64,000 nucleotides of DNA from positions 51,926,329 through 51,990,328 of the forward strand of contig OW028573.1 in NCBI GenBank assembly GCA_932294295.1. Reading direction: 5' to 3'. This document shows positions 3,720 to 41,419 of this stretch, piece by piece. The stretch is from Alitta virens (lineage: Eukaryota; Annelida; Polychaeta; Phyllodocida; Nereididae). Made by a program: the position numbers and the translations under genes. Under the pieces are notes generated by a model that was not told where the DNA came from, made no database searches, and saw only the letters and a program-made list of their open reading frames with translations. Each line of letters opens with the position of its first letter. Within the stretch, counting starts at the first letter, position 1.

Positions 3720-6700
3720 TCAAATTGAATCATCAGCTGCAAGCACAATATGATTAATGGCTTCATCTAATTCAGCATCATCAAAGTCAGACAATTCACT
3801 ACCTGTGTCATCATAGTCATCATCAAAAGAACCATCACTCCCATTAGCAACAGAGATGATGGGGGCTGCATCCCCTCCTTCAGCTCCATGAAGTTCATCA
3901 ACTTCAAGATCTGACTCATCACTGTCAGGAGGAATCTCATCTGTCATCCTAGCCTCGATGATCCCAAGCATATTGAATGGAGTTTCATCCATTTTGACCT
4001 TCCTGCGTTTTTCCATGTGCTTCTTCACTGCACCTTCAATAATATTATCTCTTTCCTCTGGTGACCATGAGGCATGGTTGACTTTTATGATGAGAAGATC
4101 ATCCATTGTCGCTGGTTTAAGAGATAGGCGCCTGTCAGACGACATGGCAGAGAGCTGACTGAATGCCTTCTCTACCATGCTGTTGCTGACACCAATGCAC
4201 AGCACCACTTCTACCAAAAGACAGACATTTGGAATTTCTTTCCTGCGGTATAGCAAAACCTTTTCCCACAATTTCTTTGCTTTGAAACCCTTGTAGAAGA
4301 AACTGCAGAGGGATTTCAGTTTGAACCACTCCTTCTTTAGTTTCTCCTTTTGAAACCCAGCCAACTCCAGTGTGACAGAAAAATGCTCGGCAACTGTATT
4401 CATCATTGCCAGCTCATGAGCTGTGTCATCACTCCAGTTGGCTGGGTCAAGCCACACCATACTCTGAAACAGCTCGTTTTCTCTTTCAGATTGGAACCTA
4501 TGATTTAGGCATTGGTTCACATCATCAATAACTTTGGATGCCAAAGAGTGCTGTTCCTTGGAACATTGCTCAGCTTCATGCATGTCTATCAATGAGCCTC
4601 TTTCAATAACAACATGAACAAATTCTCTGTTCCCAGCTTCCTTCCGCTTGTGGCCTGCTTTAGGCATTTTCCAGATGACTTTGTCCACTTCACCATTGAT
4701 ACCCTGGGAAACATGAATATCAGCATCTTTCAAACAAGTGTCGTAATCAGCTGCTGATGCCAGGAGGTCAAAATTTGCTGACGTTGTTGTTGCAAGAAGC
4801 AAGGGGATCTCAAATATGTTGACATCTCCCCTTTCCAGTTTCAGTGAGAGCTGAGAAATGTTCTCCAGCAATTGGAGGTAGAATGAGCAATGGCAAAGGA
4901 AACGAAAGCTCTTGAGCTGTTTCAAGATACCCTTCATTTTGGGTTTGTTGGCACGATAGGAACCTTCTGAGCTTGCAATGCAGTTCTCCATCAGTTTGAT
5001 CAGAACACCCCAGTTGTGGAGAAGGACATGTAGCCCTCGCCTCTGATGGTTGACGAACCTCGTCCCGTGCACTTTTGGGAAATTGTACACAGTGACTCCC
5101 AGGACTTTGGCATGTTTGAAGAACTGTCTCTTCATCTTGCCACTCTGTTTGAAGAGATAGAAGATGGTAACCATGAGATCCTTTGCCCTAGAGAAGTATT
5201 TCTCCTTCAACAAGGAGTCTTTCAATGCTAATTCCAATCTGTGCGAGACACAGTGCATGGTAATCAACTATGGCCTTTGGGATCTTTGTAGCTGGACAAG
5301 CAAACCATTGTACTTCCCTGTATTTACACTAGCCCCATCTGATGTAGCACAAATCATTTTTTGTATATAAGAAGTTTCAGGTACATTCAAATTCTCAATG
5401 AAAACACTATCAATTGCCTGTTTCAAATTATCAGCATTTGCATCACCCCATGAGTCCATATCAGCCAATGAGGCACAGTAATACACAGGAACCCCGCCAC
5501 GGACAACACGGATCAAGACAAGTTCCTTCTCCTGAGAGGTTTTTCTCGCTTGACTACCATCTGTGAGAATGGCAAATGAATTAGCAGTACACATAATCAA
5601 AGACAATTTCTCACGGATGGTATCCGCTAATTCATGTACAAATTCCCGTGCATGTTTGCCTGATGTGCACCCATGGATCAATCTGACACCATTGGCCTTC
5701 TGGCATTTTACTACTGTTTCAAAATGGGCCAACGGAAGGCCACCTACAGCAATCAGATAAGCAGTTTTCATAAGTTTTTTGTAAGCGACTTCGGCATTTT
5801 TATGCAAACTGTCATCTATACTGGGCTGCTGTCTTGTACTGCTGGCACCAATTGCAGGTTCAGCTCCATCACCAAGAAGGTCCCTGTATTCCAGTCCCAA
5901 CTTGTGAGCAAGACCATCTAGATGGCGATTGATGTTGTGTTTCGTCACATAGTTGGATCCAGTGACATATCGATCCACTTCAGTCAGGGCAGTTCCTTTC
6001 AGGCGATAATCTGTCTTGATCTTGGAAGCATACTTTGAGCATATTCCACAGTATACCTGTAGTTAAGCAGAGAAAGAGAATTCAGATTTGATTATGTCAG
6101 GTATCACTTTAATATTCTATCATTATAATTATACATAGTTTGTTATTCAATCATACATCATATTTTAATACTCAATCTTTGTTTTTACCTTTTTGTCACA
6201 AAATAGCCTATGGCTAGTCGGTTTTTATACTGTAACTTTAAATATTTAAATATTTATAAATAAATCTATTGCTATTGTTATTAAATTGTGGCAATATAAA
6301 ATTTTATTTTTTATTGTAATAATTGTAATAAGCCATTATTTCATACTGTGACCTCAAAAAAAAAAAAATAATAATTATACATTTATTTATTCAATAGAAA
6401 TGCCCATCGGCGATACATATTCATAGCTATATATAAGTAAAAATTTATTATTCAAATGGGACGTTTAGGGAATTGGACATTTCAGGTGTGGACGTTTTGG
6501 TTGTCAGACGTTTTGACTTGATACTGCTCCAAGCAAGCTAATTACTGATTGGCTGTTGTATTTTGGGTCTAACACAAAGTAATCAAAATGGCGGTTGTCA
6601 CTGATAATCACGACGATCTTAGCTACGTTTTGAAAGGAAATTCGTTTATATTTTGCATCTTAGGGACGAATAACTATATATTGGTTTACCGATATGATAC

Positions 6701-36415: not shown

Positions 36416-36780
36416 CCTGGTCATTTTTTCCGCAAAAATTCGTCGCCAACTCCTCGAATTTTGGGTGTTACGTAATTTTTGTTATTACTACGAGTTGACT
36501 ACGAGTAACTCGGCTATGTGGGAACGGGGCTTAAAGCCCCGTTCCCACATAGCCGAGTTACTCGTAGTCAACTCGTAGGATTACGTAACACGCCTCTCGG
36601 GCCCAACTCTTACTAAACTCGGCGATTACTCCTCGCACTCGAGAGATGCTCGGCGAGTAACTCCTGAGTCTCGTAGCGAACTCGTGGGATTTGGAGCCGA
36701 GTTTGCCGAGTCTCCCGAGTATGCCGTGCTGCACGGCACACTCGGCGAGTTATCCAGGAGTCCAAAAACTCGGCCATGAC

Positions 36781-36990
36781 TCGCCGAGTTACTCCTACAA
36801 CTCGCCGAGTTACTCCTCGAACTCGCCGAGTTACTCCTCGAACTCGGCGAGTTACTCGGCGCTATTTTCACTCGTATTACACTCGGGGGGGATGTTGAGG
36901 AGTGCGAGGAGTAACTCGGCGAGTTGTAGGAGTAACTCGGCGAGTTGTAGGAGTAACTCGCCGAGTTGTAGGAGTAATTCGCCGAGTTGT
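36781..36990. repeat. ACTCGSCGAGT palindrome array, right element, left side
   Basis: About nine copies of the 11-nt palindrome between the terminus and the promoter of the Myb/MADF-like gene. Confidence 0.85.
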
Positions 36991-37079
36991 AGGAGTGCCA
37001 GAATTCAGTCGAGGGGGTTTAAAGTGTCACTCCGTGGGTTTAACCAGTGAATGATGTAGATCCAACGCGCTTGGACTAA

Positions 37080-37180
37080 CTGCAAATGACGCAATGGTAT
37101 CTGGGTTTGTTATGTCATCACAGCGGGGTACGCTCTCTAGGTAGTATATAAAGATTGACCAGTGATCAGGGGATCATTCA
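37080..37180 (+). promoter_or_regulatory. Histone-like promoter of the Myb/MADF-like gene
   Basis: A near-octamer CTGCAAAT (37080-37087; 7 of 8 to ATGCAAAT) precedes the TATA box TATATAAAG (37145-37153). The start element TCATTCA (37174-37180) lies about 31 bp after the start of the TATA box and fits the sea-urchin histone cap-site rule PyCATTCPu. The ATG at 37235 would follow a leader of under 60 nt. Confidence 0.7.
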
Positions 37181-37234
37181 GCATTTTGCTAACACACATA
37201 GAAGACCAAAAGACCGCTCCAGAAATTTTTTATC

Positions 37235-38899
37235 ATGCCGATGAAAAAGACCAGGTTCGCCAAAAGGCCTGCAGTGGACACAGAACTATCTGCTGGATCT
37301 TCTGATGACTCTGAAAACCCGACAAAGACATCGCAGAAGACTGCTCTTCCTGTGAAGAAAATGAAGAAGTCTGCTCCAAGATCTCCTGTCAAGAGGACTA
37401 CTGCTGCTGCAAGATCTCCTGCCAAGAGGACTACTGCTGCAAGATCTCCTGGCAAGAAGACTGCTGCTGCTGCAAGATCTCCTGCCAAGAGGACTACTGC
37501 TGCTGCAAGATCTCCTGCCAAGAGGACTGCTGCTGCAAGATCTCCTGCCAAGAGGACTGCCAAGACGCGTCTGCCAGTGCCAACAAGAACGTCATCAGAT
37601 GCTGGCAGTAGTAATGATGAGCCCCAGGTTGCTACTCCTGCGTCTGCTGCAGCACCTGCTACTTCTTCGCCTGCACCTGCTCCTTCGCCTGCTCCTTCGC
37701 CTGCTCCTTCACCTGTTCCTTCGCCTGCTCCTTCGCCTGCTCCTTCGCCTGCTTCTTCGCCTGTTCCTTCGCCTGCTCCCTCGCCTGCTACTTCACCTGC
37801 TACGTCCGAAGTGCCTGCTACACTTTCCAATGTTGCCAGGAAAAAACAGGAAAAGTTGTTCCTGCCAGCCACCGATGAGCAGGATATCGCTGACTGGTTT
37901 AGAGAAAATCCCATTTTTTATGACCGGACCTTGAAAGCCTACAAGGATTCAGGAAAGAAAATGGCCCTCATCAATGAGATGGCAAGGAAACTGAGTGTCC
38001 CCTGCACTGGATTCCAATTGAAGACCTGGATGGAATCCATGCGGACTGTCGCAGGGAAACTAGTGCGGCAGGGACCATCTGGAACTGCGAAGAGGAACCC
38101 CACAGAGAAGGAGTTGTGGATTATATCGAATTTTGGATTCCTTGTGGACCACATTACACGTATTCCAAGTCGCCGGGGGAACACTGCCCTCCAGAAGAAA
38201 ATTGGCAAGGCACGGGAGACACTTAAAAATCTCGAGGAAGAAGAAGGGAGCTCTACTCCAGCTGATGATTCCGGGCCCCAGGAAATTTCTGATCCGGACA
38301 TTTCTATGGATATCCCTCCTGTCCGGCAGACGAAGGGTGGTCCATACAAGAAAAGGAAAAGGTCCACGCCACCGCAATCTGGCATAGAAAATCTTGTTAA
38401 CATTGCCAGACAGTCTACTGGAGTCATCCAGCAGACTATGCAGCAAATGGCCGTTCCTCCAAAGGATTTGAAGGAGAGGCGAATCCGGGCGATGGGGGAG
38501 TTCATTGTCATGGAATGTCTGTCCATGGATGATGAAGCATTTGAAGACCTGCACAGCAACCTGATCCCCACATTCATGCAGCTCAAAGCGAATGCCATTA
38601 GAGCCAGGTTCCAGCTGCAGCATCAACCCCAGCATCAACCTCAGCAATTCATGCAGCACCAGCAGCATCACCAGCAGCATCACCAGCAGCAGCACCAGCA
38701 GCAGCACCAGCAGCAGCACCAGTTCTATCCTCCTTCTGGATCCCAGCATCAGGTGCACTTCCCACCAATGATAAGTCCAGAAAAGAATTGGCCAGCGGGA
38801 ACCTCAGCAATGCCACCTTCCGGACCTCCATCCATGATTTCCGAGATTCCCACCACTTCAACTCCTGCTTTGAACATAAGCCAGTTTTTGAATGTTTGA
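37235..38899 (+). CDS. Harbinger accessory DNA-binding protein (Myb/SANT/MADF-like) with linker-histone-like tail
   Basis: 554 residues, no intron apparent. Residues 49-108 carry six RSP(V/A/G)K(R/K) repeats, the SPKK-type minor-groove motif of sperm and linker histones. Residues 145-190 are Ser-Pro-Ala repeats. Residues about 213-310 resemble a Myb/SANT or MADF trihelix domain (DWFRENPIFYDRTLKAYKD, then LKTWMESMRTVAGKL). A basic patch (PYKKRKRS) near 370 is a likely nuclear signal. About 459-505 are Gln/His-rich. In Harbinger elements the second protein binds the ends and brings the transposase into the nucleus; I infer the same here, probably on the ACTCGSCGAGT arrays. The H1-like tail is unusual for such a protein. 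The start is the first ATG after the TATA box. Confidence 0.85.
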   Translation: MPMKKTRFAKRPAVDTELSAGSSDDSENPTKTSQKTALPVKKMKKSAPRSPVKRTTAAARSPAKRTTAARSPGKKTAAAARSPAKRTTAAARSPAKRTAAARSPAKRTAKTRLPVPTRTSSDAGSSNDEPQVATPASAAAPATSSPAPAPSPAPSPAPSPVPSPAPSPAPSPASSPVPSPAPSPATSPATSEVPATLSNVARKKQEKLFLPATDEQDIADWFRENPIFYDRTLKAYKDSGKKMALINEMARKLSVPCTGFQLKTWMESMRTVAGKLVRQGPSGTAKRNPTEKELWIISNFGFLVDHITRIPSRRGNTALQKKIGKARETLKNLEEEEGSSTPADDSGPQEISDPDISMDIPPVRQTKGGPYKKRKRSTPPQSGIENLVNIARQSTGVIQQTMQQMAVPPKDLKERRIRAMGEFIVMECLSMDDEAFEDLHSNLIPTFMQLKANAIRARFQLQHQPQHQPQQFMQHQQHHQQHHQQQHQQQHQQQHQFYPPSGSQHQVHFPPMISPEKNWPAGTSAMPPSGPPSMISEIPTTSTPALNISQFLNV

Positions 38900-38924
38900 A
38901 GACAACAGTTTTAAAACCATCCCC

Positions 38925-38960
38925 GGCCTTTTTCAAGGCCACCAAATCCTCCCAAAAGAG
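38925..38960 (+). terminator. Histone-type mRNA 3' end: stem-loop plus downstream element
   Basis: GGCCTTTTTCAAGGCC (38925-38940) forms a 6-bp stem and UUUC loop, followed by ACCA, fitting the replication-dependent histone stem-loop rule GGYYYU-UUYN-ARRRCC-ACCA at every position. The purine-rich AAAAGAG at 38954-38960 fits the U7-binding histone downstream element. It begins 25 nt after the stop. An AATAAA (39457-39462) further on could serve as a fallback polyadenylation signal. Confidence 0.8.
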
Positions 38961-39202
38961 CACGCCTTGTACACATATCTGTGTATAAACAATCAATCAA
39001 AAAAAAAGTTCCAAAACCCTCCAAACTTTTCTCTATCTTTGTCCACGAAAGTATAATATTTTAGTCCAAAATCAATTTCTTCACTTCAAGTAACTTGTTC
39101 ATATTTCCTTTTCATTACAGCACAGATATTGGTCCATTTTTTTGTAATATTTCTTTTAATAAGGGTTAATAATTTTGATGAAAGAAGACATACTTTTTTT
39201 TG

Positions 39203-39454
39203 TTCAGAAGTGCCGTACTTTTTTTTTGTTCAGAAGTGCCGTAGTTGTGTCTTGTTCAGAAGTGCCGTATTATTTTTTTTGCTTCAGAACTGCCGTAGAT
39301 TTTTCTATTATACTGCAATGAAAATAATGAAAGTACGGCACTTCTGAACAAGAAACAACTACGGCAGTTCTGAAGCAAAAAAAATAATACGGCACTTCTG
39401 AACAAAAAAAAAGTACGGCACTTCTGAACAACCAACAACTACGGCACTTCTGAA
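39203..39454. repeat. Long inverted repeat made of TTCAGAAGTGCCGTA units
   Basis: Four plus-oriented units (39203, 39229, 39255, 39283) face five inverted ones (39334, 39360, 39388, 39414, 39440), in mirrored order including one shared variant (CAGAACTGCC). A 36-nt spacer lies between. It sits between the two convergent genes, beyond both histone-type 3' ends, so only read-through RNA would contain it and fold into a long hairpin. Confidence 0.92.
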
Positions 39455-39523
39455 CCAATAAAATATTTTGTGTGGGTCAGACAGGAACGTTTTTTTTATT
39501 ACACAAGAAGTGTACATGGTCTG

Positions 39524-39559
39524 CTCTTTTGGGAGGATTTGGTGGCCTTGAAAAAGGCC
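39524..39559 (-). terminator. Histone-type mRNA 3' end of the transposase gene
   Basis: On the minus strand, the same GGCCTTTTTCAAGGCC (39559-39544), ACCA and AAAAGAG (39530-39524) as in the partner gene, starting 20 nt after the transposase stop. The two 3' ends share about 41 identical bases, then diverge slightly. AATAAA on this strand (39500-39495) follows as a possible second signal. Confidence 0.8.
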
Positions 39560-39579
39560 GGGGTTGTTTTGTGGAATCT

Positions 39580-40905
39580 TTATACCATGTCATCTTGCCA
39601 TGGCACTCTTCCTTCTTCTGAATTGACAAAGTCCACCAAGTACTGCCGTTGATTCTTGGCTGCTTCAGTCATAGAATGCCCTCTATTTGTTGGTGGCATT
39701 TCATCGATTTCTCCAGCTGCCCTCCAAGTTCCTGGGATGATACGATGTGTGATTGGATCTTCATGGTCCAGCATGATGTTCTGAGCAGTCGGATAAGTTA
39801 TTCTCATCAGATTGTGGAGGCAGCAACATGCAATGACTATAGATTCCACTGTCTTAGTTCTTTGTGGCATGGTAGTCAGGAGACACCTGAACCTTGCTGC
39901 AAGGATCCCAAATGCGTTTTCCACAATTCTTCTTGCCCGGGAGAGGCGGTAATTGTATATCCTCTGCTCTTTGGTCATGTTTCTGAGAGGCAGTGGCTTC
40001 ATCAGCCAGGTTCTCAAGGGGAAGGCATCATCTCCGACAATGAAGTAGGGAAGAGGTCTGTGACCAGGAAGAATTGGTTCAGGTGGAGGTAATCCAATGG
40101 TCCCTTCTTCAAGTCCTTCTCTCAGGAGTGTATCATTAAAAACTCCTCCATCAGATCCAGCGCCGTTTGCTCCACAGTCTACATAGAGGAACTTGTAATC
40201 AGCATCCACAAGAGCCATGAGTACGATGGAATGGAAGCCCTTGTAATTGAAATACACTGAACCACCTTTTGGAGGACATTTGATGGCCACATGCTTCCCA
40301 TCAATGGCTCCAATACAGTGAGGAAAGTTCCACCTTGAATAGAACAGTTTCGCAACTTCTCTCCACTCTTCTGGAGTTGTGGGGCATGCCAGGACATCTT
40401 CATTATACTCCGCAATGATGGCTTCACAGACTTCTCGAATTATGTTGCTGATGGTATTGTAAGCCACTCTGAAGCCATACATGAGGGACCTGTAGCTGTT
40501 TCCAGTTGCCAAATAGCGGAGGGTGATGGCAAGTCGGAGTCCTGGCTCCAAAGATTTCCTCCAGAAGGTGTCTTCTTTGGTAATCCTATGACCTATTTTG
40601 CCAAGGATCCCTTGAAACATGGCTGGTTCCATTCTCAAAAAGTTAGTATAACTAGAAGTGTCCTCTTGCATCAGTTCAGTCAGTAGACGCTCATACTGTC
40701 CCATCTGAGGTCTTCTCAGCAGCCAGGGCCTCACCCAATACCTCCTCCTCCTCTTCCTCCTCATGGCTGCTAATTTTCTTTCTTCTTTCTTCTTACTCTC
40801 CTCATCCTCAAGTAATGCTGCTGCAACAACAGCAAGTTGCAGATTCGCATGAGCAGCTAGTAGTACCAAGACTCTATTCTGATGTTCTGTCTGATGCATG
40901 TCCAT
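39580..40905 (-). CDS. PIF/Harbinger DDE transposase (HARBI1-like)
   Basis: 441 residues, uninterrupted. The N-terminus has a basic block (RRKRRRRYWVRPWL, 49-62), followed by the helix-turn-helix-like part around 120-165 (LRLAITLRYLATGNSYRSL). The DDE_4 nuclease follows: D202 in GAIDGKHVAI, D292/D293 in VGDDAFPL and E329 in RIVENAFGIL, with the family's LHNL motif near 363-366. All catalytic residues are present and the length is normal. It should cut and join the element's ends at TWA sites, with the convergent Myb/MADF-like protein as partner. The chosen ATG follows a TATA box by about 60 bp. Confidence 0.95.
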   Translation of the reverse strand: MDMHQTEHQNRVLVLLAAHANLQLAVVAAALLEDEESKKKEERKLAAMRRKRRRRYWVRPWLLRRPQMGQYERLLTELMQEDTSSYTNFLRMEPAMFQGILGKIGHRITKEDTFWRKSLEPGLRLAITLRYLATGNSYRSLMYGFRVAYNTISNIIREVCEAIIAEYNEDVLACPTTPEEWREVAKLFYSRWNFPHCIGAIDGKHVAIKCPPKGGSVYFNYKGFHSIVLMALVDADYKFLYVDCGANGAGSDGGVFNDTLLREGLEEGTIGLPPPEPILPGHRPLPYFIVGDDAFPLRTWLMKPLPLRNMTKEQRIYNYRLSRARRIVENAFGILAARFRCLLTTMPQRTKTVESIVIACCCLHNLMRITYPTAQNIMLDHEDPITHRIIPGTWRAAGEIDEMPPTNRGHSMTEAAKNQRQYLVDFVNSEEGRVPWQDDMV

Positions 40906-40933
40906 GGTCCTCTCTCTTCAGCAGCTACAGACA

Positions 40934-41001
40934 GAATGATCAAGAACAGAAGATGCAGCCCCTATTTATATATTTTTGTAATTAAACACAGCTATTTGCA
41001 T
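40934..41001 (-). promoter_or_regulatory. Histone-like promoter of the transposase gene
   Basis: On the minus strand: a perfect octamer ATGCAAAT (41001-40994), TATA box TATATAAATAG (40972-40962) and start element ATCATTCT (around 40940-40933), then the ATG at 40905. Octamer plus TATA is the H2B promoter layout. The partner gene's promoter has the same order and also shares GATCATTC. Confidence 0.7.
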
Positions 41002-41055
41002 AATAATTTAAGTAATAACCTTGATGAGTATCATGAGTATAACTCGTCGACATTA

Positions 41056-41270
41056 CGAGTTACTCCTGGTACTCGGCGAGTTACTCCTGGTACTCGGCGA
41101 GTTACTCCTGGTACTCGGCGATTTACTCCTCTAACTCGCCGACACTCTCCTCGAGATCGTTCACTAATTGGCTGCAACTCGGCGAGTTACTCCTCGAACT
41201 CGCCGAGTTACTCCTCGAACCCGCCGAGTAACTCGGCGAGTAATTCGGCGAGTAACTCGGCGAGTCACTC
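41056..41270. repeat. ACTCGSCGAGT palindrome array, right element, right side
   Basis: A mixture of TACTCCTGGT-spaced and tightly packed palindromes between the transposase promoter and the right terminus. Confidence 0.85.
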
Positions 41271-41419
41271 CTGGTCATTTTTTCCGCAAAAACTCGTCGC
41301 CAACTCCTCGAATTTTGGGTGTTACGTAATTTTTGTTGTTACTACGAGTTGACTACGAGTAACTCGGCTATGTGGGAACGGGGCTTAAGTGTATGTCATA
41401 TTCAAGTGAGGAATTCATC

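Follow-up and report, generated by a model that had tools for sequence, protein, structure and literature searches.

A PIF/Harbinger transposon of Alitta virens with histone-type 3′-end signals on both of its genes

Introduction

Textbooks, to our knowledge, reserve mRNA ends formed by a stem-loop rather than poly(A) for a single class of animal genes, the replication-dependent histone genes, and the literature describes histone mRNAs in this way. Can a mobile element carry the same ending, and what might the signal do there? The question arises from a 64,000-nt stretch of the Alitta virens genome (the window), in which an earlier note described a transposon with a histone-like stem-loop behind each of its two genes. 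We compared this element with its other genomic copies and with the host's own histone genes.

Results

The window contains an element in which terminal and coding features agree (Table 1). Its TIRs are exact at both ends (36535 and 41385), and a TAA TSD flanks each side. As in known PIF/Harbinger elements, there are two genes, one for a DDE_Tnp_4 transposase and one for a Myb-like/MADF protein, together with TIRs and a 3-bp TAA target; all features that define the group, namely a DDE_Tnp_4 transposase, a Myb/SANT-like second gene, TIRs and a 3-bp TWA TSD, were found. The transposase has its invariant columns in common with 24 homologues, and the N-terminus of the gene 1 protein is rich in SPxK. 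Each gene is one uninterrupted reading frame, as in histone genes.

Table 1 Features of the element in the window
Feature	Position	Strand	Description
PIF/Harbinger element	36535..41385	.	TIRs AGCCCCGTTCCCACATAGCCGAG; TAA TSD at 36532-36534 and 41386-41388
Gene 1 promoter pieces	37080..37179	+	near-octamer CTGCAAAT 37080, TATATAAA 37145, CATTC 37175
Gene 1	37235..38899	+	554-aa protein; MADF/Myb-SANT-like domain; PF10545, E 6.1e-6
Gene 1 stem-loop	38925-38940	+	GGCCTTTTTCAAGGCC, 25 nt past stop; consensus and Rfam Histone3
Gene 1 downstream signals	38941..38961	+	ACCA cleavage region, 13-nt spacer, HDE-like AAAAGAGC (38954-38961)
Imperfect inverted repeat, 113 bp	39194..39463	.	between convergent genes 1 and 2
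Gene 2 downstream signals	39523..39543	-	ACCA cleavage region, spacer, HDE-like AAAAGAGC (39530-39523)
Gene 2 stem-loop	39544-39559	-	GGCCTTTTTCAAGGCC, 20 nt past stop; consensus and Rfam Histone3
Gene 2	39580..40905	-	441-aa DDE transposase, HARBI1-like; PF13359 (DDE_Tnp_4), E 6.2e-30
Gene 2 promoter pieces	40934..41001	-	octamer ATGCAAAT 41001, TATATAAA 40972, CATTC 40938

The stem-loops and the layout of the 3′ ends are real and as first described. In the sense orientation of both genes, a 16-nt GGCCTTTTTCAAGGCC runs into ACCA behind the stop, and the purine-rich AAAAGAGC starts 13 nt beyond the stem, where the earlier note had placed such an element. Scanning the window with GGYYYTTHTHARRRCC, which we take to be the histone stem-loop consensus, returned only these two gene ends (0.06 matches expected from shuffles). 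The Rfam Histone3 model scores the two ends at 28.8 and 30.7 bits (E 4.3e-4 and 8e-5 for the whole window and all families), under its gathering score of 34. This is no argument against the element's ends, since the host's own histone ends likewise stay below 34, at 24.5-28.5 bits.

We then set the element against the host genome (671 Mb searched), reading the ends of H2A, H2B, H3 and two H1 genes. A different host stem-loop would have spoken against a shared signal; in the H2A, H2B and H3 genes read, the 16-nt stem-loop is the same letter for letter, and the spacer and downstream element are nearly those of the transposon. The two H1 genes have a compensated variant stem and nearly the same flank. 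Four ends of the element and four of the host agree at 33-38 of the 44 positions that follow the stem; in letter shuffles, none of the 16 pairs exceeded 24.

The ending is also found in other copies of the family, whose lack of it would have refuted the earlier reading. Finding transposase copies by protein alone gave 95 that were scored and 25 whose 3′ ends were checked; a stem-loop lies 23 or 26 nt past the last sense codon in 24 of these 25, and the single miss has lost the intergenic DNA between its genes. In a diverged copy, L011, four places score 23.7-30.6 bits in Histone3. Damage is visible in others: the last gene-1 stem-loop of L009 is broken, the transposase downstream element of L019 is altered, and L072 has lost its downstream element.

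How the block has been kept alike bears on whether it does anything. We compared the window with two other copies by fourfold-site identity and by the 30 nt after ACCA, which lay outside the genome search pattern except that the locating script demanded three of them (TCC). Against L012, fourfold-site identity is 0.77 in the transposase gene and 0.46 in the MADF gene, with 30/30 nt kept behind both; against L011, it is 0.48 with 27/30 kept for the transposase and 0.31 with 24/30 kept for MADF. At fourfold identities of 0.27-0.48, and between proteins sharing 34-62%, 24-30 of the 30 nt are retained, and conservation drops beyond about 36 nt past the stem.

These figures weigh most on the strongest competing account, that the element captured a histone 3′ end which now rides along passively, its likeness maintained by gene conversion or by recent common ancestry, while transcripts acquire poly(A) at an AATAAA lying 44 nt beyond the transposase stem, or at a later site. 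Such a hexamer does exist at 39500 on the minus strand; on the gene 1 side, the nearest plus-strand AATAAA beyond the stem is 517 nt away, at 39457. The two 3′ ends form a 61-nt inverted repeat with 92% identity and, being so paired, are not independent within one element. Recent amplification is evident too, since 23 of the 95 scored transposase rows reach the top score. The block could also have stayed alike without selection if copies, or the two arms of the inverted repeat, homogenise one another. Against passive carriage stand the retention of the block in diverged copies, the fall in conservation beyond it and the gene-specific differences between the ends (CACGCCTTG versus CAGACCATG). 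These differences are common to the window and L012 subfamilies, so neither end of an element has merely been copied over the other. We judge a passive passenger unlikely.

A function of the palindrome in DNA, perhaps bound inside the element by the transposase or the MADF protein, seems very improbable. Tandem arrays would suit it: two or three stem-loops, spaced mostly 26, 28 or 31 nt apart, occur in 13 of the 20 loci L009-L028, which were selected by the stem-loop itself. Yet 70 of 72 stem-loops, in 21 loci found by the stem-loop, have a same-strand transposase or MADF gene end within 900 nt upstream; copies found by protein show a constant distance between stop and stem-loop; and the spacer and HDE are conserved along with the hairpin and match those of host histone genes. 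The motif is missing from the terminal repeats, its only two matches in the window being the gene ends. Chance hairpins can be dismissed: although the intergenic region is full of inverted repeats and 1 of 100 shuffles of the window holds at least two consensus matches, the same 16 letters with nearly the same flank in host histone genes refute the idea, and the host genome has 971 matches to the stem-loop plus ACCA pattern against none to the reversed pattern.

The promoters fit a histone model less closely. All the pieces that the earlier note had read as a histone-type promoter are present as it describes them, and TATA and CATTC accompany 29 of 29 full-length element genes examined. The octamer did not hold up as part of a family-wide package: an octamer or near-octamer precedes 14 of the 29, all from the window's own subfamily. 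Among the host histone genes read, none has an octamer in the 180 nt upstream of H2A, H2B or H3, and H1 alone was seen to have CATTC where transcription probably starts. The promoter half of the proposed histone package is thus partly supported and weaker than the 3′-end half, which is well supported; the first interpretation as a whole is partly supported.

Turning to the factors that process histone ends, we found a host SLBP gene (PF15247, two exon matches above the cut-off, near G000:C8:22.055 Mb). Human U7, in the sequence given in PMC7026596, contains GCUCUUUU, to which AAAAGAGC is complementary. In duplexes with this human U7 sequence, three of four element ends are equalled by at most 1.4% of shuffles, and the four host histone ends by 0.2-3.4%; the fourth element end, that of L011 gene 1, is equalled by 44%. 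For the host's own U7, RF00066 gave five matches across the genome at E up to 10, all under the cut-off, and the same threshold yields matches in 12 of 14 control genomes, none above the cut-off. We rejected these five matches, the best of which falls inside an exon read as aldolase, as well as L076, the sole match to a U7 Sm-site pattern, which has neither a 3′ hairpin nor a U7 match.

Discussion

The reading we favour, and hold to be probable, is that this PIF/Harbinger element bears the host's histone 3′-end signal on both genes, and that SLBP and the U7 snRNP probably cut its transcripts, leaving them non-polyadenylated. It resembles the SLBP/U7-processed, replication-dependent histone genes of metazoans in its stem-loop, ACCA and correctly spaced purine-rich element, and further in its uninterrupted frames and TATA box. 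Unlike histone genes, it encodes a transposase and a MADF protein in dispersed mobile copies, which often have several tandem stem-loops ahead of one downstream element. From known PIF/Harbinger elements it differs in that both genes terminate in a histone stem-loop with an HDE. Among the papers listed in our literature searches, none showed a PIF/Harbinger element with genes ending in this way, and a search of viral and genome contigs confirmed no relatives in other species.

Judged from its sequence, the element may have worked as follows. The 3′ block would have come from one of the host's histone genes, ahead of the divergence of the subfamilies. SLBP and the U7 snRNP would then cut the transcripts in place of polyadenylation, and the resulting RNAs, lacking poly(A), would be produced and translated chiefly in S phase, which would time transposase production to DNA replication. 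Copy number might rise when an element leaves a site that has already been replicated and inserts into DNA still to be replicated, or alternatively through repair from the sister chromatid.

If this is correct, a transposon family that is large, has amplified recently and has a histone ending on both genes would break the histone-only rule and provide a molecular tie between transposition and S phase. It would also suggest a route by which transposons circumvent controls on poly(A) RNA, and such transposases would be missed by poly(A)-selected RNA-seq.

More tentatively, several unrelated transposon superfamilies in this genome (Harbinger, Mutator-like and perhaps others) may each have adopted the host histone 3′-end signal, in which case expression timed to replication and free of poly(A) would be the general rule for its mobile DNA; we lean against so broad a view. 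A Mutator-like transposase copy, L006, resembles the element in having, 3′ of its broken transposase frame and on the same strand, a stem-loop and a AAAGAGAGC-type downstream element. It differs in its transposase family (PF20700) and was seen as a single decayed copy. The multi-superfamily reading is made less probable by L006 itself, whose Pfam-matched transposase piece stops about 830 nt ahead of the stem-loop, and by L008, in which a Histone3 search at E up to 0.05 matched nothing.

Separately, the 113-bp inverted repeat between the genes resembles a microRNA precursor, in Rfam matches that fall under the family cut-offs.

A Harbinger with histone-type 3'-end signals on both genes

The PIF/Harbinger transposon in the window has exactly the limits assigned to it in the earlier note, as judged by its terminal inverted repeat and target duplication, and its two genes are convergent. 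Its left end abuts, through a shared TAA, a 2.2-kb relative whose termini are the same. This relative is non-autonomous, with internal 175-nt repeats and no frame longer than 116 aa, and a consensus search of the window revealed no histone stem-loop within it.

The earlier note had reported a histone stem-loop after both genes, and this reading held. GGCCTTTTTCAAGGCC lies in sense 25 nt (gene 1) and 20 nt (gene 2) past the stops, ACCA follows directly 3' of each stem-loop and AAAAGAGC begins 13 nt past each stem. The 64-kb window contains no third consensus stem-loop beyond these two. Against the Rfam stem-loop family Histone3 (gathering score 34), the ends scored 28.8 and 30.7 bits (E 4.3e-4 and 8e-5, whole window against all families). 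Since each end is a copy of the other, the pair forming a 61-nt inverted repeat that is 92% complementary, the window alone provides one observation rather than two. Separately, the N-terminus of gene 1 carries repeated SPxKR/K motifs resembling linker histone H1 tails. Between the convergent genes lies a 113-bp imperfect inverted repeat built from TTCAGAAGTGCCGTA-like units, whose transcript would form a long hairpin and could possibly be a source of small RNAs.

Features of the window and of host loci, with positions in the window unless a locus or contig is named
Feature	Position	Strand	Description
Element	36535-41385		TIR AGCCCCGTTCCCACATAGCCGAG, TAA duplication
Gene 1		+	uninterrupted frame, 554 aa, MADF domain
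Gene 2		-	uninterrupted frame, 441 aa, DDE_Tnp_4 transposase
Non-autonomous relative	34324-36531		
Gene 1 N-terminus	37340-37560		
Inverted repeat	39194-39463		
Two adjacent frames	3720-5771	-	
5S rRNA gene	L029 2730-2848	-	117.8 bits
L006	G000:C1:1718876-1721895	-	stem-loop and AAAGAGAGC downstream element, Histone3 30.5 bits
L008	G000:C1:4354537-4357556	+	two tandem stem-loops downstream of broken frame
L069	G000:C1:33994900-33996000	-	stem-loop GGCCCTTTTAAGGGCC, 49 nt after GDSL-like frame

The stem-loop recurs across the family

Throughout the host genome (671 Mb, window included), the stem-loop with ACCA occurs 971 times (448 on the plus and 523 on the minus strand, histone genes included). 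It occurs 533 times with the element-type spacer and the start of the purine-rich downstream element (HDE); both reversed patterns occur 0 times. The first 100 places listed, on contig C1 up to 59.19 Mb, fall into 63 groups. Stem-loops on both strands are present in 26 of the groups, convergent in every case. Twenty loci (L009-L028) cover 21 of these 26 groups, and one further group is the window. Both element genes were matched by tblastn in 20/20 loci, and 70/72 stem-loops in these loci and the window lie no more than 900 nt downstream of the end of a transposase or MADF gene on their own strand, the only strand considered.

Because these loci were picked by the stem-loop itself, an unbiased test was needed. 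Searching with the transposase protein gave 2,557 first-look candidates; the 95 best were scored, and 25 of those were checked: all 17 on C1 (12 examined, five by subtraction from the pattern-match list), two on contig C2 (within that list) and six further copies, 90-99% identical, located farther along C2 or on other contigs. The stem-loop was present in 24 of the 25, located 23 or 26 nt past the last sense codon. In the exception, on C2, the sequence past CCCC is gene 1's end in reverse, so that the intergenic DNA including the stem-loops is gone. Among the six further copies, one has lost the HDE and five have at most one letter changed in it; in one of the five the loop is altered too, but still conforms to the consensus.

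Likeness to host histone genes

A PF00125 profile search of the host genome returned 54 histone matches, 46 of them in a tandem cluster on contig C12. We read the 3' ends of H2A, H2B, H3 and two H1 genes (L007, L067). As the earlier note's proposal predicted, the H2A, H2B and H3 loci carry GGCCTTTTTCAAGGCC. The H2A stem-loop is followed by ACCAAATCCTCCAAAGAGAGCAGACCATGCACAC, from which the H2B and H3 flanks deviate at a few letters, and both H1 genes carry GGTCCTTCTAAGGACC, a compensated variant of the stem, and differ little in flank and downstream element. Across the 44 nt past the stem, four element ends and four host ends are identical at 33 to 38 positions; with letter-shuffled host ends, none of the 16 pairs exceeded 24. 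Histone3 scores were 24.5 to 28.5 bits for host ends and 23.7 to 30.6 bits for four listed places in L011. That the match exceeds the general consensus, reaching into genome-specific letters, points to descent of the element's 3'-end block from a host histone gene, a direction we infer. The host histone repeat also contains a 5S rRNA gene.

The block is retained among divergent copies. Fourfold-degenerate identity between the window and L012 is 0.77 for the transposase and 0.46 for MADF; for L011 it is 0.48 and 0.31. Within the 30 nt past ACCA, which lie outside the genome search pattern, although the script that located them needed three of them (TCC), L012 keeps 30 and 30 and L011 keeps 27 (transposase) and 24 (MADF). 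Aligned position by position, 23 distinct ends vary little between a few nucleotides before the stem and ~36 nt past it and scatter further on, the stem and ACCA being uniform through the choice of loci; variable positions fall within the HDE and the CAGACC after it. This comparison excluded ends failing an ACC-NNN-TCC filter (for example, L014 gene 1) or having no upstream gene. In L009, the last gene-1 stem-loop is broken. Homogenization may help to keep the blocks alike, above all in L011, whose two gene ends resemble each other. The window and L012 subfamilies have gene-specific letters in common, CACGCCTTG following gene 1 and CAGACCATG following gene 2, so one end of the element has not simply replaced the other.

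Processing signals and promoters

SLBP is represented in the host by two exons matched in a PF15247 profile search. One published account gives a human U7 sequence that includes GCUCUUUU, which is complementary to AAAAGAGC, and names AAAGAG as the purine core pairing with CUCUUU (PMC7026596). Genome searches did not find the host's own U7, and all pairing figures are for human U7. Shuffled sequences formed duplexes with it as strong as the real ones in at most 1.4% of cases for three of the four element ends tested and in 44% for the fourth, L011 gene 1 (HDE AAGAAAGC); for four host histone ends the range was 0.2 to 3.4%.

The earlier note had also proposed a histone promoter package of octamer, TATA box and CATTC, which stood only in part. 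Among 29 full-length genes from 15 loci including the window (seven further truncated frames were left out), TATA and CATTC lie upstream of all 29. An octamer or near-octamer accompanies 14, all of the window's subfamily, and is absent from the 180 nt upstream of host H2A, H2B and H3; host H1 has TATA and CATTC. We therefore read it as a plain TATA promoter whose start element recurs in host H1; to call it a full histone package would overstate the case.

We interpret this element as a Harbinger exploiting the host's histone mRNA pathway. Its transcripts would be processed by SLBP and U7, would end without poly(A) and would be timed to S phase, and use of this pathway would presumably benefit transposition. 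Because an AATAAA lies 44 nt beyond the transposase stem, a polyadenylated form may exist as well. Among the matches listed from the open PMC literature, no title or abstract start describes a histone-type ending on a transposon.

Stem-loops outside Harbinger and histone genes

Seven solitary stem-loop places (L006, L008, L065-L069) comprised three Harbinger copies, one H1 and three that are neither (L006, L008, L069); a further solitary place, L007, is H1. Upstream of the L006 stem-loop, on its strand, lies a Mutator-like transposase with a broken frame (PF20700, E 8.6e-23 for a piece and 1.4e-18 for part of it), the matched piece ending ~830 nt before the stem-loop. The broken frame at L008 has a weak MULE match (E 0.059), and no Histone3 match was found there at E up to 0.05. 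L069 gave the best Histone3 score seen in this analysis (32.4 bits), and its frame has a weak GDSL Pfam match (E 0.028). These single, mostly decayed cases prompt a bolder reading, that several unrelated transposon superfamilies of this host each took over the histone 3'-end signal, which we offer tentatively and consider somewhat doubtful.

Elsewhere in the window, no histone stem-loop was found by consensus search near two frames that adjoin each other; one has no Pfam match, and PF05699 (hAT dimerisation) matches the other at E 3.7e-7. Among Harbinger loci, two or three consensus stem-loops stand in tandem in L009, L011, L012, L014, L015, L017-L021 and L023-L025, spaced mostly by 26, 28 or 31 nt, followed by a single downstream element and lying mostly behind the MADF gene.
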